Positions 23,495 to 47,038 of a stretch of 64,000 nt of DNA are shown in pieces; position 1 is the stretch's first letter, and each line of letters starts with the position of its first letter. The stretch is from Thermoplasmata archaeon (GTDB lineage Archaea > Thermoplasmatota > Thermoplasmata > Sysuiplasmatales > Sysuiplasmataceae). The notes below the pieces were generated by a model. That model had not been told where the DNA came from and made no database searches. It was given only the letters and a program-made list of their open reading frames with translations. The DNA is taken from assembly GCA_021806165.1 (NCBI GenBank), contig JAJZXY010000003.1, positions 1 to 64,000 on the forward strand, given 5' to 3'. A program made the translations under genes and the position numbers.

Positions 23495-25102
23495 TCAGAG
23501 GACAATCCCCTCCCTTACTGACGCAAGGCTGCCGCCTGCCGTCCTCAGAAGCACGCGCACCTCGCACCGGGCACCCTCAGGAAGACCGGGGATGAGCTGC
23601 AGCAGACGCTCCCCGCCGAAGGAGCGTGAGCACAGCGGAGCCGCTCCCCCTTCCGACCATATTCCAGCTTCGCCCGACACAGCAGCGTCGCCTGCGCCCA
23701 CAAGCCTGACGGAAACGGACGGAGCGGCCTCCGTTGGTATGACCGATACCTCGATGCCGGGGGGAATGTCCGGGACCATGCACCTTTTCCCCCTGCGCCC
23801 GTACGGCGACACTGCCTTGCTTCCCCTGACTACGAAAGCAGCCCCTCCCCCCTCGAGCGGGGGCAGGGCCGCTTCTCCCGCCAAATCCATTGTCAGGGAT
23901 GTTCCGCCCGGAGGGCAACTGCGAGACGCTCCGTCCCTCCCGATCCAGTCAGCCGTCAGGTCCAGCCGCAGCATGGTACCTGAAGCGCTGAGCCCGCGCC
24001 TGCCGCCGGGAGGCAGGCCGAGACAGGAGCGTACTGTTTCCTCGGCCGGAAGGTCGCCGCCGTCAAGCGGTATGATGCCGCACATGAGCTTCATCACCCT
24101 CCTACTCCCATATGCCTCCGCTGTGCTGCCAAGCCTTTCGAGCGCCGTCCTGACAGCCACCTCGCTTATGTCGGCTGATATCCACCTCCTGCCGAGCGCC
24201 TGTGCTGCGATGGCTGTTGTGCCGCTTCCTCCGAAGAAATCAGCCACCGTGCTGTCCGCCGTAGACGAAGCCCTGACAACAGTCTGGAGCAATCTCAGCG
24301 GCTTCTGGGTCGGATAGCCTGTCCTCTCCCTGGCCTGGCTGTTGATGATCGGTATATCCCACACGTCCTCGGGAGCCTTGCCCCGCGAGTTGAGCCTCGT
24401 CGGCCTGCCGAAGGATATGGTTCCCCTTCTCCCCTGCTCGATAGTTCCGGGACTGTATTCCATCCTCACCTCGTCAATGTTGAATATGTGCTTCCCGGCA
24501 TGCCTTGCGTAGAACAGGATTGTATCGTGCTTCTTCTTGAATCTGTCCCTCACGGTTCCTGCTGGATCCCTGTAATGCCATATGATCTCATTGAGGAAAT
24601 TGCCATAGCCGAATATCCTGTCCATCATCGTCTTGACATAATGCGATGCATGCCAGTCCAGATGGACATAGATGCTGCCACGCATGCTGAGGAGGCGCCG
24701 CATCTCCACAATCCTGGGTTCAAGCCAGGAAAGGTATCCGTCCATGCCCTCGCTCCACACATCGCTGAACATTGGATTCTGCGTGCCGTCGTACAGGTGC
24801 GGAAACTCCCTGTTGGTGAAGAATGGCGGGTCGGCGTAAATCAGGTCCACCGAGCCTGCGGGAAGGGAGCGCATTGCATGGAGATTGTCACCCCATATCA
24901 TGAGATTGCAGCTGTCTGACAACCCCCCGGAAATGCTGCCGGCCTGCACAAGAGGGAGGGCATCGAAGGGGGAATGGCGCACACCCGTTACCGCCTTTCC
25001 TGTCTGACTCCTCACAGCTCCGGCCCTCCCCTGTTCATGCCGCCCGTATCGCCTTCCCCGCGGGTGCCTGATAACCACTGCATTCGGTTGATAGATGCAC
25101 AT
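23495..25102 (-). CDS. Orphan DNA methyltransferase (N4/N6-type) with long C-terminal extension
   Basis: Residues about 70-330 form a class-beta amino-methyltransferase: motif IV VDLIYADPPF (DPPF 91-94) precedes the SAM motif ADFFGGSGTT (288-296), and a GYPTQKP block sits at 262-268, the usual order in type III Mod-like and related enzymes. It should methylate exocyclic N of A or C in DNA. The C-terminal 200 residues (about 335-535) lie outside that fold: they are Gly/Ser/Ala/Pro-rich, low in Lys, and unrecognised. There is no restriction gene nearby, so it is an orphan enzyme, perhaps for self-marking or replication control. N terminus (1-65) is poorly defined. Confidence 0.85.
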   Translation of the reverse strand: MCIYQPNAVVIRHPRGRRYGRHEQGRAGAVRSQTGKAVTGVRHSPFDALPLVQAGSISGGLSDSCNLMIWGDNLHAMRSLPAGSVDLIYADPPFFTNREFPHLYDGTQNPMFSDVWSEGMDGYLSWLEPRIVEMRRLLSMRGSIYVHLDWHASHYVKTMMDRIFGYGNFLNEIIWHYRDPAGTVRDRFKKKHDTILFYARHAGKHIFNIDEVRMEYSPGTIEQGRRGTISFGRPTRLNSRGKAPEDVWDIPIINSQARERTGYPTQKPLRLLQTVVRASSTADSTVADFFGGSGTTAIAAQALGRRWISADISEVAVRTALERLGSTAEAYGSRRVMKLMCGIIPLDGGDLPAEETVRSCLGLPPGGRRGLSASGTMLRLDLTADWIGRDGASRSCPPGGTSLTMDLAGEAALPPLEGGGAAFVVRGSKAVSPYGRRGKRCMVPDIPPGIEVSVIPTEAAPSVSVRLVGAGDAAVSGEAGIWSEGGAAPLCSRSFGGERLLQLIPGLPEGARCEVRVLLRTAGGSLASVREGIVL

Positions 25103-27531: not shown

Positions 27532-27566
27532 ATTCCTTTGATAGACGTAGGAAACTATTTCTCATT

Positions 27567-27577
27567 TTCCAGTGGAA
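27567..27577 (+). promoter_or_regulatory. ORB-like dyad, candidate replication origin element
   Basis: TTCCAGTGGAA in the context TTTTCCAGTGGAAGTGGAA. It matches the dyad core TTCCAGTGGAA of archaeal origin-recognition boxes, to which Orc1/Cdc6 binds. It lies in the intergenic region upstream of the GAF-array and orc1/cdc6 genes. I see one copy only; the G-rich arm of full ORBs is weak, so this is a mini-ORB at best. Confidence 0.5.
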
Positions 27578-27658
27578 GTGGAATAAGCATGCGCTCTTTG
27601 TGGCTTTTCGACGTAGGCAATGCAGGCGAGGATTTCGAAGGTGGTAATTGAAGGGGAA

Positions 27659-27667
27659 TTTATATAA
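27659..27667 (+). promoter_or_regulatory. TATA box of GAF-array gene
   Basis: TTTATATAA centred at 27663, predicting transcription start near 27689. That is two bases before the ATG at 27691 and after the ATG at 27682, so the shorter, leaderless start is favoured. Confidence 0.6.
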
Positions 27668-27690
27668 GACGTTTCAGGAGAATGAGATGC

Positions 27691-30600
27691 ATGACTGCGG
27701 GACGTGTGAGAACACTGCGTTCAGGGCAGTCAGATAGTCTTGTTCCGTCTTCAATCAGGCAGGGGCGATCGGAAGCGGCAAGGGTGGCCGGTGCACTGGA
27801 AGCGGCAAGGGTGGCCTCCGGAGGAAGCGAGGCGTGCCTCTACTCCGCTGAAGGCCGGTTACTGCGCCTCCTTGCGCACTCAACCGCATCTGCTGACAGG
27901 CCGCATGAATCTGTTGAAATCACATCCGACCATCCGCTTAACGACTGGTTGGAGGGTGCTGTGAACGGTGAGGACATAGCTTCTTACAGCTCCGGGGAGA
28001 TGAGCTGGGTGCCGCTCGGCCCAGCCACGAATTCCAGCGTGCTGTCCCTGCGGCGGCCTACTGCAGGGATCGACGAGATCAGGGGATTGGCGCGCCTCCT
28101 GAACACAGTCCTGTACGGCGAATGGACTGTTGCGGGAGACGGCATCCTCCTTTCCTCCCTGGAAAGATTCGCTGCCATGCACCACGCCGGCAGCAGACTC
28201 GGCGATATGGCGGCTGTCCTGAAGGAATCCTGCTCCCTCGCATCTATTCAGCTTTACTGCGGGGCCGGTGACGGTGTGCAGCCTGACTTTGAGGTGGGAG
28301 ATGCGGTGCCTGCAAGGAAGGAGGACATAGCGCAGGCAAGGCAGACAGGCATCCTGTCCACAAGGCTGAGAAGGGATGAGCAGCGGAATATCATGATGGC
28401 AAGGGTGCTTGTGCCTGTCGATGGCAGGAAGGATGACAGGATCGTAGCGCTGTACGAACTTGAGGCCGACAGGGCGGATATCGCGCAGGTCGAGGAGACA
28501 GTCCGCATTTCGCTCAGGATTGCACTAGGTGTATCCGAAGAGCAGGCTCTTGTATCCAGGGCCTGGGCGGAGGTGATATGCCTGGCAGACAGGTCCGCGG
28601 CAGATGCATCCAAAGTGGTGGATGCGTCGACACAGCTCATCATAGAGACAGTTCTGGAGAGTCTTAGGGACAGGCATTTCATATCCGGCTACGGGGTCAG
28701 GTCAGAGGAGTCGCTCAAGACTGACGGACATGGAACGGCTGCAGCGGAGGCAGGCTCCGACAGGAAGCTTGAGGCACTGATGCAGAGATGCATCAGCCGG
28801 AGCGAAACAGTTATCGACAGGGCGGAGGGTGTGATTGTCTTCCCGGTCACTGATGATGAGGACAGGAGGTGGGCCGTTTCAGTGACAATGCGGGCAAGGC
28901 CGCACATCAGGACTGAAATGGTCCTTTGGGAACAGTTCGGCCCTGCATTCGGGATACTGGTGAGATCGTCTGTCATGAAGGCAAAGAACAGGAGGCAGAT
29001 TTCGGAGATCAGGAGGCTGAGGAGTGGAGCATCCACCTTCCTGAATGTGATAGCTGCGATAGAGAATGCAGACGGAATGAAAAGGCTGATCGGCAGCTGT
29101 GCGGACGGCCTTTCTGCAATGACGCAGTGTGCATCCTTCGGTTTCATAATAGATGGGGAATCATACAGGCTGATTAGCCCTGAAGTAATGTCCCTCTCAA
29201 TACCCAGGGAGAGGATGTCTTCAATCCTTGCAGGTTCGAAGGAGCTGGCAAGGTATGTGCATCAGGTTTCATTCGACAATGCAGGCGTTGAACTTGGCGA
29301 CCTGACGGGAGGGGAAAAGGATGACATGCTCTACATGATGCCCGTGCTCTCCAGGAGGGGGGAGATGACAGGTGCGGTCTTCTGCCCCGCACAGGAAGGC
29401 TACTTCCTGAGGAGGACAAGGGAGGACACACTTTCAGCTGTCATGTCCATGACAAACCTGAGGGCTTCAGGAATGGAGTGGGCAGACGAGGCATCAACGG
29501 AAAGGAGCAAGAACAGGAAGGTCGAGGAAGTCATCTCAAGAATATGTCTTGCGGAGGGGGACAGCAGCATAGTGTCCTCCATAGTCGAGGCTGCCTCGGA
29601 TCTTACCGGTTCGGACATAGCTGCGCTTGCCATAATGGATGTCGAGAAGAAGCAGCTGATATCAGGGAGCACAACAGGCATCGAGGTCGGGCAGGAGCAC
29701 CTTCTGGACTGGCTCGGGAGCGGTGTAAGCGGCAGGATACTTAGGACGCTGGAACCCGAGATTGTCAATGACTACGGCAGCGACCCGGACATGATGGAGG
29801 ACGCGCTGCACAGGCTGAAATTCAAGAGGATTACAGGCGTGCCGGTGCGCATCGACATGAAGCACCGGGGCGTTCTCATTGCGGTCAACACAAAGGGCGG
29901 GGCGTATACAGGGGAGGATCTAAAGACGCTTGAACTGCTCTCCAACATGGCCTCGTATGCGATACGTGCGTCAAATGCCAGGTTAGAGAGGAGGAGGCTC
30001 GTGGATGACTTTGACAGCCTTCAGTCCGCAGAGCTGAAACTCTACTCCTCGAGGACATTCGAGGAGCTGATTGCGATGCTCGGAAATGAGGTGAAGAGCC
30101 TATTCCACGCATCCGCCGTGCTGATAGCAATGGATGTCAACAATGTCAAGAGGATCATGTATTCAACGGCGCAGGAGATAGAGGAGGGCGACGTGGTCTA
30201 CAACAGCGGCTCCATAGGGCTGCAGTTTGACGAGTTGCAGCACTCTGCCAGGGTAGTTGAAAGGGCGAGCCTCGAGGAGGAATGGTCGAGGACCCTGGAA
30301 ACAAACGAGCTGCTGCTTGTGAAGGCGGGCTTCCAGACAGAGGCCATAGTGATTGCAGCAGTCAACGGAGCATCCGCCCCGAAATTCGGCGCAGATGACA
30401 TTGAGAAGCTGGGGAAGCTGTCAAAGATAGCATCGACAGCGCTGGACAAGACCAGGCTGCTGAGCGGAATCAACCAGAAGCTGAAGCACATAGAGATAGT
30501 GCACACCATTATCGACGCGCTTGTTTACGGGAAAAAGGACTACGAGATATTCGACAGCGTCCTTCCCACACTTGTCGACATGTGCGGTGCGGATCTCGGC

Positions 30601-31023
30601 CTTCTCTGGAAATATGACAGGAAGAATGAGAAGCTCAAGATATCTGCGGAGCACTACAGGAACAGGGAGACGGAGCATCTCGTCGGCTATGAGGTGTCCT
30701 CAAAGAAGGGGATTGTCGGAAGCGTTGTTTCCAACAAGATGCCTGTGCTTATTGCAAACGCCGCCATAGACAACAAGGCTGTGCACATCAGCGGCACAAA
30801 TATGGAGAAGTTCGAAAGCGTCCTGGGAGTCCCCCTCATAGTAAGAAGAGAGCTGCTGGGGGTGCTGATGATTTACAGGGACAACCCGCCACCCTTCACA
30901 TCGGTGGAGCTTGATGTGCTTACAAGCGTGGCCAACGACATTTCACTGGTCATGGCAAAGCACAGCAGGGAGCCGGGCATTAGTGCGGAGGGCAGCGCAG
31001 CCGGGGGAGCGGGAAAGCAGTAG
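27691..31023 (+). CDS. Large multi-GAF-domain protein
   Basis: About 1,110 residues built almost entirely of GAF-like modules. The last three are clear: about 610-765 (VEEVISRICLAEGD..., ending LLSNMASYAIRASN), 770-930 and 935-1095 (ending GVPLIVRRELLGVLMIYRDN and a long C-terminal helix). Four weaker modules of similar length appear to precede them from about residue 15. There is no HTH, kinase, cyclase or other output domain, and no membrane segment. GAF domains bind small ligands or haem and form dimers; a scaffold or sensor role is inferred. Orc1/cdc6 follows after 60 nt on the same strand. Near the N terminus a 27-nt tandem repeat (27771-27816) encodes EAARVA twice. Confidence 0.75.
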   Translation: MTAGRVRTLRSGQSDSLVPSSIRQGRSEAARVAGALEAARVASGGSEACLYSAEGRLLRLLAHSTASADRPHESVEITSDHPLNDWLEGAVNGEDIASYSSGEMSWVPLGPATNSSVLSLRRPTAGIDEIRGLARLLNTVLYGEWTVAGDGILLSSLERFAAMHHAGSRLGDMAAVLKESCSLASIQLYCGAGDGVQPDFEVGDAVPARKEDIAQARQTGILSTRLRRDEQRNIMMARVLVPVDGRKDDRIVALYELEADRADIAQVEETVRISLRIALGVSEEQALVSRAWAEVICLADRSAADASKVVDASTQLIIETVLESLRDRHFISGYGVRSEESLKTDGHGTAAAEAGSDRKLEALMQRCISRSETVIDRAEGVIVFPVTDDEDRRWAVSVTMRARPHIRTEMVLWEQFGPAFGILVRSSVMKAKNRRQISEIRRLRSGASTFLNVIAAIENADGMKRLIGSCADGLSAMTQCASFGFIIDGESYRLISPEVMSLSIPRERMSSILAGSKELARYVHQVSFDNAGVELGDLTGGEKDDMLYMMPVLSRRGEMTGAVFCPAQEGYFLRRTREDTLSAVMSMTNLRASGMEWADEASTERSKNRKVEEVISRICLAEGDSSIVSSIVEAASDLTGSDIAALAIMDVEKKQLISGSTTGIEVGQEHLLDWLGSGVSGRILRTLEPEIVNDYGSDPDMMEDALHRLKFKRITGVPVRIDMKHRGVLIAVNTKGGAYTGEDLKTLELLSNMASYAIRASNARLERRRLVDDFDSLQSAELKLYSSRTFEELIAMLGNEVKSLFHASAVLIAMDVNNVKRIMYSTAQEIEEGDVVYNSGSIGLQFDELQHSARVVERASLEEEWSRTLETNELLLVKAGFQTEAIVIAAVNGASAPKFGADDIEKLGKLSKIASTALDKTRLLSGINQKLKHIEIVHTIIDALVYGKKDYEIFDSVLPTLVDMCGADLGLLWKYDRKNEKLKISAEHYRNRETEHLVGYEVSSKKGIVGSVVSNKMPVLIANAAIDNKAVHISGTNMEKFESVLGVPLIVRRELLGVLMIYRDNPPPFTSVELDVLTSVANDISLVMAKHSREPGISAEGSAAGGAGKQ
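27771..27816 (+). repeat. Short tandem direct repeat inside GAF-array gene
   Basis: GGAAGCGGCAAGGGTGGCC occurs at 27771-27789 and 27798-27816, a perfect 19-nt match with a 27-nt period. It is in frame and duplicates EAARVA plus three residues, so it is a small in-frame expansion in the N-terminal segment. Confidence 0.8.
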
Positions 31024-31083
31024 GTCGATGGCAACTGCAAAGATAATAAGAGATGCAAATGATAGCCCTGAACGGACATCAAC

Positions 31084-32256
31084 ATGCCTAGCGGAGTCTT
31101 CAGGGATATATCCAAGCTGTCGTTCGACTACGTTCCGGAAAAGCTGCTGCACAGGGAGGAGCAGTGGAGGAGGCTCGAGGTCATGTTCGATCCAGTGGCA
31201 CAGGGGGGCTACAGCCAGAATGTCCTGCTTGTGGGAAGCATTGGCACCGGCAAGACGGTCACATCCAAGCGGTTCTGCACGGAGCTCGCCTTCAATGCCA
31301 GAAGGCACGGAAGGAGCATCGAGTGGACAATTGTCAACTGCAGGCAGAGGAACAGCGAGGCATCCACGCTCCTCAAGATGATAAACTATTTCGACCCCAA
31401 CTTTCCAGACAGGGGTTTCTCATCCCAGGAGCTCAGAAAGGTGCTCAGGAAGCACATAGAGAAGAGGGGTGACCACTGCATCTTTGTCCTTGACGAGGTG
31501 GATGCGCTCTTCAGGAGCGGGGCCAGCGATCTCGTCTACTTCCTGAGCAGGCTTCCCGAGGAGTCGGACACGCTGAAGAACAAGGTATCCCTCATACTCA
31601 TCTCGCAGAGGCATGTGTTTGACATGCTCGACATGTCTGCCCTTTCCACATTCAAGAGGACGAACGTCATCGAGTTTGGCAAGTATACCAAGGAGCAGCT
31701 CTTCGACATCATATCCGCCAGGGCGGAGCTGGCACTGGTGAGCGGGACATACGATGACGAGATACTCGACCTGATAGCCGACATTGCCAGCGAGTGGGGT
31801 GATGCGAGGTTTGCGATAGAGATGCTTGAGAAGTCAGGCATGCTGGCAAACGAAAGGCTCGGCGAAGGCATAACAACAGAGGATGTGCGGGGTGCCAAGG
31901 CTGCAACCTATGCGTTTGTGACCGAGGAGAGGGTTGCGGGACTGAACCAGGACCAGATGCTAATCCTGCTGGCAACGGCAAGGATGCTGAGGAACAAGGC
32001 ATACGCCGAAACATCTGAGGTGGAGAAGAGCTACAGGATTGCATGCGAGGAGCATGATGTCAAGCCGAGAGCCCACACACAGTTCTATTCGCATGTCAAG
32101 GACCTGGCTGGTCTGGGGCTGCTCGACATCAGGTCGAAGAAGGGTAGCGTTGCAGGCATGACGAACATGATTACAATGCTGGACATACCGGCCGACGTGA
32201 TGTCGCAGCAGATTGAACAGCTGCTGCGATCGAAGAAAAGCAAAAAGAGGAGGTAG
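31084..32256 (+). CDS. Orc1/Cdc6 replication initiator
   Basis: A 390-residue AAA+ protein that recognises origins and loads the MCM helicase. Walker A is GSIGTGKT at 51-58, Walker B is FVLDEVDAL at about 134-142, and the winged-helix domain occupies about 290-385 (ARMLRNKAYAETSEVEKSY... QFYSHVKDLAGLGLLDI). It ends with a basic tail KSKKSKKRR. A TATA-like GATAATAAG near 31042-31050 gives it its own promoter inside the 60-nt gap after the GAF gene. Archaeal origins usually sit beside this gene; an ORB-like dyad is 3.5 kb upstream. It is followed after 12 bp by gcvT. Confidence 0.93.
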   Translation: MPSGVFRDISKLSFDYVPEKLLHREEQWRRLEVMFDPVAQGGYSQNVLLVGSIGTGKTVTSKRFCTELAFNARRHGRSIEWTIVNCRQRNSEASTLLKMINYFDPNFPDRGFSSQELRKVLRKHIEKRGDHCIFVLDEVDALFRSGASDLVYFLSRLPEESDTLKNKVSLILISQRHVFDMLDMSALSTFKRTNVIEFGKYTKEQLFDIISARAELALVSGTYDDEILDLIADIASEWGDARFAIEMLEKSGMLANERLGEGITTEDVRGAKAATYAFVTEERVAGLNQDQMLILLATARMLRNKAYAETSEVEKSYRIACEEHDVKPRAHTQFYSHVKDLAGLGLLDIRSKKGSVAGMTNMITMLDIPADVMSQQIEQLLRSKKSKKRR

Positions 32257-45865: not shown

Positions 45866-47038
45866 ATGCCAAATTCTCTTGTTAGGGATGCATTAGGTCC
45901 GGATTTCAAGGTACCTGCCCAGCAGGTTGTGAGCACGCCTCCGGCGCAGGCTGGAGAGATTAGCAAGGACGACGAGGAGCTTGCAAGGATAGCCTCGTCG
46001 CTCGACGTCTGCATCAAGATAGTCGGATGCGGGGGCGGCGGAACCAATACGATCACAAGATGCCATGACTCTCAGATTCAGGGGGCGCAGATGTGCGCGC
46101 TCAACACGGACGCCAAGCATCTCCTTTCTGTCCACTCGCAGCGGAAGATACTGATTGGCAGGAGGCTTACACAGGGGCTGGGCGCAGGCGCAATACCTGA
46201 AGTCGGGGAAGAGGCGGCAAGAGAAGCTGATCCCGAAATAAGGGGATTCCTTCAAGGCTCGCAGATAGTCTTCGTTACCGCCGGAATGGGCGGTGGAACC
46301 GGAACTGGTTCGGCGCATTACGTCGCCAGGCTGGCCAAGGAGATGAAGGCTCTTACGATTGGTGTCGTGACACTTCCCTTCAGGGCCGAAGGGGAACTCA
46401 GGATGGAGAACGCAATGGCGGGGCTGGAAAAGCTGCGCCGCATCTGCGACACGACAATTGTAATCCCCAACGACAAGCTCCTTGACCTGGTACCGAAACT
46501 GCCTATTGAGGCTGCCTTCAAGGTGGCCGACGAAGTTCTCATGCAGACGCTCAAGGGACTGACGGAGATAGTCACAAAGCCTGGACTCGTGAACCTGGAT
46601 TATGCGGACATAATGACCGTCATGAATGAGGGCGGGGTTGCGTTTGTAGGCATAGGGGAGAGCGACTCTGAGGATGGAAGGATAGACGAGGCAGTAAGCG
46701 AGGCACTCAATTCTCCACTGCTCGGCGAGATAAACCTGGCCGATGCCGCGGGATGCCTGATAAGGGTGACCGGCGGACATGACCTTACTATTTCCGAGGC
46801 GCAGAAGGCAGCTGAAATAGTCAGTTCAACCATAAGCAGGAATGCACGCATCATATGGGGATGCTCCGTAGACGACAGTTCCGAAGGCACGGTAAAGGTG
46901 CTTCTCATCGTCACAGGCGCAAGGTCGAAGTACATGCTCGCCAAGGAGGACTCCATCCAGACCGTTCCAGAGGTCGGCAGGGCAGCTGCCACCGCGGTGA
47001 CTCAAGACTTTGATGACGGAATAGATGTCATCCGCTGA
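45866..47038 (+). CDS. ftsZ: Cell-division tubulin homologue FtsZ
   Basis: A 390-residue protein. The GTPase domain shows CGGGGTNT (55-62), the tubulin signature GGGTGTGSA (142-150) and the T7 loop [11 protein letters not shown] short N-terminal extension of about 45 residues (Pro/Gln-rich) precedes it and no long C-terminal tail follows. It polymerises with GTP at the division site. A TATA-like TTTATAA (about 45826-45832) predicts transcription start near 45855, ten bases before the ATG. Confidence 0.93.

Follow-up and report, generated by a model that had tools for sequence, protein, structure and literature searches.

A gene for a long protein built of GAF-like modules lies directly upstream of an orc1/cdc6 gene in the 64,000-nucleotide stretch of Thermoplasmata archaeon DNA that we analysed (the window). 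This raises the question of whether such a protein could pass metabolite state to the start of replication, as a preliminary description of the locus proposed, or whether the two genes are neighbours for other reasons. Our literature search returned no paper joining GAF domain, Cdc6, archaea and replication initiation.

The GAF-array gene

27691..31023, + strand: seven-GAF array protein, 1110 aa (open reading frame, Pfam GAF, AlphaFold2/Foldseek, purifying selection)
27656..27669, + strand: TATA/BRE-like promoter GGGAATTTATATAA of the GAF gene (sequence; conserved box in relatives)

Two ATG codons, at 27682 and 27691, are both open as starts of the reading frame. We favour 27691 because a TATA-like box lies 23 nt before it, comparable to the 24 nt in the relative G056 and 23 nt in G020; the GGGAATTTATATA box recurs ahead of the gene in G056, G020 and G040. 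Comparison of the gene between G020 and G040, which belong to the same genus, gave a pN of 0.045 and a pS of 0.197. The reading frame is a genuine gene and is under purifying selection. Its product is soluble, and hydropathy analysis revealed no clear transmembrane segment.

Seven GAF-type modules are predicted

27757..28131, + strand: GAF-like module 1, ~aa 23–147 (AlphaFold2 of modules 1–4; no Pfam match)
28138..28611, + strand: GAF-like module 2, ~aa 150–307 (AlphaFold2, full-length and modules 1–4; no Pfam match)
28618..29064, + strand: GAF-like module 3, ~aa 310–458 (AlphaFold2, full-length and modules 1–4; no Pfam match)
29068..29550, + strand: GAF-like module 4, ~aa 460–620 (AlphaFold2 of modules 1–4; poor in the full-length model)
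29560..30045, + strand: GAF module 5, ~aa 624–785 (Pfam GAF_2, AlphaFold2)
30058..30525, + strand: GAF-like module 6, ~aa 790–945, holding the conserved segment aa 842–865 (AlphaFold2, conservation)
30538..30963, + strand: GAF module 7, ~aa 950–1091 (Pfam GAF/GAF_3, AlphaFold2, solved relatives)

Pfam GAF profiles score above the curated cut-off only at ~aa 630–761 and ~955–1089, which correspond to modules 5 and 7, and the closest solved relatives of module 7 are the GAF domain of PtsP (3ci6) and a PDE (5w10). An internal profile-profile comparison matched module 5 strongly to module 7 and weakly to module 6, leaving the other modules unsupported as homologues. Because this comparison supports only the pair 5 and 7 and, in part, the pair 5 and 6, seven modules cannot be proven by sequence.

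AlphaFold2, run on an alignment of eight orthologues, returned exactly seven repeats, each composed of a helix, strands, a second helix, further strands and a long linking helix, with a pitch of ~150 residues and the long helices joining one module to the next. Modules 1 and 4 gave good models only when excised; modelled alone, modules 1–4 reached a mean pLDDT of 72 and all four were ordered, and the full-length and modules 1–4 models together show seven modules. Foldseek matched the tandem GAF structures of PDE2A, PDE5A, PDE6 and a cyanobacterial adenylyl cyclase with E values of ~1e-9 to 1e-7 and, within the same range, phytochrome PAS-GAF-PHY structures. The Foldseek matches are pooled across modules and the model confidence is moderate as regards the fold of each module, but the two methods agree overall, and the protein is predicted to consist of seven GAF-type modules.

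The array has no output domain

Pfam and NCBIfam detected no enzyme, receiver, kinase or DNA-binding output domain in the protein. In particular, Pfam gave no Response_reg match that would indicate a REC domain, and HisKA and HATPase_c were absent from the window protein and from the orthologues scanned. A hidden C-terminal output domain was considered and rejected, as the chain runs on for only ~20 disordered residues after the last module. The NKXnFX3DE (NKFDE) cyclic-nucleotide motif found no match in the window protein, nor did we find an invariant Cys or His that could mark a metal or bilin site, and therefore none of the known classes of GAF ligand can be attributed to it. Given the two AlphaFold2 models, the Foldseek matches and the missing output domain, the preliminary description, which had reported about seven GAF-like modules and no output domain, was right about the protein itself, and its reading as an output-less ligand-sensing scaffold is reasonable.

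The modules do not evolve alike. Between genera, identity is 0.11–0.20 in modules 1–4 compared to 0.35–0.44 in modules 5–7, a gradient in which the first four diverge fast and the last three are conserved. Among the most conserved parts of the whole protein is a segment of module 6, aa 842–865 (window 30214–30285, IGLQFDELQHSARVVERASLEEEW; aa 846–865 are FDELQHSARVVERASLEEEW), which AlphaFold2 modelled with low confidence. This segment may be a partner-binding site.

The neighbouring gene is an orc1/cdc6.2 paralogue

31084..32256, + strand: orc1/cdc6.2 paralogue, 390 aa, AAA+ plus winged helix (Pfam, solved structure, tree, arginines)
31031..31049, + strand: promoter element (TATA-like) ahead of orc1/cdc6.2, with the core AAAGATAATAA (conserved throughout the family)

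The gene that starts 60 bp downstream of the GAF gene belongs to the Orc1/Cdc6 family: its product matches Pfam Cdc6_lid and Cdc6_C, and the translation contains a Walker A (GSIGTGKT) and a Walker B (DEVD) motif. Its closest solved structure is P. aerophilum Cdc6 (1fnn). A second copy, on contig C30 of the same genome, matches S. solfataricus Cdc6-1 (E=5e-101). In a tree of 26 sequences, in which 1fnn forms a long branch, the window gene grouped with the second paralogues of Thermoplasmata and the C30 gene with Orc1-1 (100/100 for each). The C30 protein carries the recognition helix TQRR and the wing GRGGRTKEI; the aligned window protein reads TQFY and SKKGSVAGMTN, so that FY stands in place of RR and the GRxGRT/K motif of the wing is missing. 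Indeed, of the arginines that contact the ORB (R345, R346, R367 and R369 in A. pernix), the RR pair is missing in all eight Cdc6.2 orthologues. The preliminary description had placed the GAF gene beside the replication initiator gene; it does adjoin an orc1/cdc6 gene, but this is the Cdc6.2 paralogue and not the initiator-type Orc1-1. We conclude that the neighbour is probably a non-initiator copy. We rejected the adjacent Orc as the main initiator on the basis of the paralogue tree, the arginines and the distribution of ORBs described below.

Similar second copies are known from other archaea. In Methanomassiliicoccales, orc1/cdc6.1 lies near ORBs and was judged the main initiator, with cdc6.2 being an inactive or accessory copy (PMC4153887), and in Saccharolobus the second Orc paralogue is a DNA-damage transcription regulator (PMC9738581). 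The window gene resembles Methanomassiliicoccales cdc6.2 and Sulfolobus Orc1-2 in that it groups with other Thermoplasmata Cdc6.2, no ORB lies close to it, and its product is missing the ORB-contact arginines. This likeness is one of sequence, and the role in DNA damage and transcription is that of the other lineages.

Each of the two genes, the GAF gene and orc1/cdc6.2, is preceded by a conserved promoter element of its own. In the relative G031, where the locus is rearranged, the AAAGATAATAA element of orc1/cdc6.2 is slightly altered and still recognisable.

The probable origin lies on another contig

27566..27579, + strand: ORB-like site TTTCCAGTGGAAGT, two mismatches to the core (judged a chance match, outside the system)

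The ORB-like site that the preliminary description noted ahead of the GAF gene is present at 27566, but it does not stand out from chance, as the window contains 7 matches to the ORB core at ≤3 mismatches compared to 4.7 expected. It is absent in all seven relatives and lacks the ORB extension of the lineage; on these grounds we rejected it as an origin. Furthermore, no ORB elements occur within 700 bp upstream of orc1/cdc6.2 in any family member. In contrast, ORB-like sites lie upstream of Orc1-1 in 7/7 family genomes where this gene was located. They are generally paired, ~130–235 bp apart, and most are extended by roughly ATGGACTC. This extension recurs in Ca. Sysuiplasmatales, whereas the ORBs of Methanomassiliicoccales instead carry a G-rich AGGGGT. 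The extended ORB occurs once in the window's own genome, at C30:107197. Judged by these sequence features, the C30 Orc1-1 locus is the probable chromosomal origin, while the GAF/orc1/cdc6.2 locus lacks the paired ORBs near an initiator gene that are expected of oriC and has a single imperfect and unconserved site.

The C30 Orc1-1 gene itself occupies G000:C30:105829-106923 (L077:8758-10023), and the upstream region C30:107190-107360 comprises the pair of ORB-like sites, with the extended sequence TCTCCAGTGGAAACAATGGACTC, as well as a stretch rich in A+T.

Distribution and synteny of the pair

A full-length orthologue of the GAF array was present in all eight species searched of Ca. Sysuiplasmatales (Thermoplasmata), an order known from acid mine drainage, and, of the 200 class genomes covered, none beyond the order yielded a full-length relative. 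The named records among the relatives are Thermoplasmata MAGs, including Ca. Sysuiplasma superficiale. Searching for related loci with the single window protein as the query gave no match, and searching with the orthologue alignment recovered members of the order only. Elsewhere in the class, GAF matches cover short stretches at low identity; the ones inspected belong to PAS/GAF/histidine-kinase, PAS/GAF/REC or DUF835 proteins.

The GAF gene and orc1/cdc6.2 are adjacent and co-directional in seven of the eight species (the window, G056, G020, G040, G049, G008 and G064), with a gap of ~60–140 bp where measured; G064 is counted here because two contigs that break at the pair have overlapping ends. 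In the exception, G031, the end of the GAF gene adjoins an IS607-type-like (TnpB-like) sequence near the contig start, and the orc gene is found on a separate contig beside an IS66 transposase. The synteny thus holds within the order, but the whole ~19 kb block around the pair (window 21.3–40 kb) shares its gene order with the sister genus (G008, L070), and because this is true of every gene of the block, the adjacency is weak functional evidence. The pair is moreover broken in G031 and missing outside the order, where orc, often gcvT, and an aminoacyl-tRNA synthetase stay close without the GAF gene. The position of the GAF gene beside orc1/cdc6.2 is most simply explained as lineage synteny.

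Several other features of the region were observed. The break between the two genes in G031 coincides with transposase sequences (L071:11376-12812 and L072:1-1326). On the minus strand at window 23495-25102, the translation, which has a DPPF motif and a long extension at the C terminus, resembles an adenine-specific DNA methylase; this gene is poorly conserved relative to its neighbours. An FtsZ-family gene lies at window 45866-47038, ~14 kb downstream of orc1/cdc6.2. FtsZ homologues, often two in a row, are found ~5–9 kb upstream of orc1/cdc6.2 in other families of the class, and thus an ftsZ-cdc6.2-aaRS neighbourhood recurs.

What the GAF array may do

On balance we favour, with some confidence, the view that the protein is a soluble, output-less multi-GAF signal integrator, specific to the order, that acts by protein contacts of its conserved C-terminal modules. 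Long helices would carry its seven GAF-type modules, much as they do in the sensor arms of phytochromes and tandem-GAF proteins. We infer that the protein is elongated and dimerises along these helices, that the variable N-terminal modules read small-molecule or partner input, and that conformational change would be relayed to a partner protein by the conserved modules 5–7, including aa 842–865. In acting via protein contact it would be like the archaeal output-less REC-(PAS/GAF)n proteins.

Archaeal output-less PAS/GAF proteins have been described and are thought to act by protein-protein interaction (PMC5847659). The REC-(PAS/GAF)n proteins of that work share with the window protein a cytoplasmic array of ligand-sensing modules, the lack of an output domain and presumed protein contacts, whereas the window protein has neither a receiver nor PAS and is made of seven GAF-type modules only. 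The best structural matches, PDE2A, PDE5A, PDE6 and the cyanobacterial adenylyl cyclase (3ibj, 3lfv, 8ugs, 1ykd), similarly have serial GAFs with long connecting helices, but they combine two GAFs with a catalytic domain, and the window protein has no catalytic domain and no NKFDE motif. Also comparable are the PAS-GAFx3/4-HisKA-HATPase kinases of other Thermoplasmata (L073, L076), which are multi-GAF cytosolic sensors of similar length from the same class; these end in HisKA-HATPase, which the window protein lacks. The GAF array is unusual as a pure seven-GAF protein, yet akin in kind to known archaeal output-less PAS/GAF proteins.

The partner of the conserved C-terminal end could instead be a kinase or the Cdc6.2 protein. 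The array might be what remains of a multi-GAF histidine kinase, its sensory half, after loss of the kinase core, and might now either modulate a separate kinase or be decaying, since multi-GAF proteins elsewhere in the class end in HisKA-HATPase and the window protein stops ~20 residues past the last GAF helix. We regard this as unlikely, though not negligible: the low pN/pS speaks against decay, a kinase end is missing from every orthologue examined, so that any loss must be old, and in the kinases the GAF that matches best is not the final one of the series, which means that there is no collinear homology to them. Somewhat more doubtful is a dedicated regulator of Cdc6.2, in which the ligand state would cause the C-terminal modules to bind Cdc6.2 and alter its ATPase activity or DNA binding, tuning replication or, in the manner of Sulfolobus Orc1-2, transcription under stress. 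The co-directional adjacency at ~60–140 bp in seven of eight species fits such a regulator, as does the similar constraint on modules 6 and 7 (pN 0.008 and 0.014 between G020 and G040) and orc1/cdc6.2 (pN 0.008), and the second Orc paralogue of Saccharolobus provides a precedent as a DNA-damage transcription regulator (PMC9738581). However, all the neighbours in the block are equally conserved, the pair is split in G031, the rest of the class has Cdc6.2 without a neighbouring GAF array, the promoter elements are separate, and within the genus the GAF protein is 47–53% identical compared to 88–89% for Cdc6.2.

A link of the GAF array to Cdc6.2, as suggested by adjacency, has a low probability. 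The stronger claim, that this seven-GAF output-less sensor directly controls the Orc1/Cdc6.2 AAA+ protein as a metabolite-responsive switch on an ORC paralogue, in replication or in stress transcription, seems to us improbable. Least credible, indeed barely so, is the original proposal, in which a ligand-sensing scaffold would tie metabolite state to the start of replication at a local origin. It drew on the adjacency to an orc1/cdc6-family gene and on one ORB-like 14-mer at 27566, but that site is unconserved and at chance level, the conserved and generally paired ORBs precede Orc1-1, both on C30 and in the relatives, and never Cdc6.2, and Cdc6.2 is without the ORB-contact arginines. With a Cdc6.2 neighbour that has its own promoter, and an adjacency confined to one order, we do not retain this proposal, and return to the multi-GAF signal integrator as the preferred reading.

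Little is understood of GAF arrays that stand alone, with neither receiver, kinase nor transcriptional output, or of the ways in which output-less sensors of archaea relay their signals. The locus also advises caution: standing next to orc1/cdc6 does not make a gene a replication gene, and one must first establish which paralogue is present. If the array does act on Cdc6.2, it would constitute a ligand-sensing input to an ORC paralogue, and we know of no earlier one.
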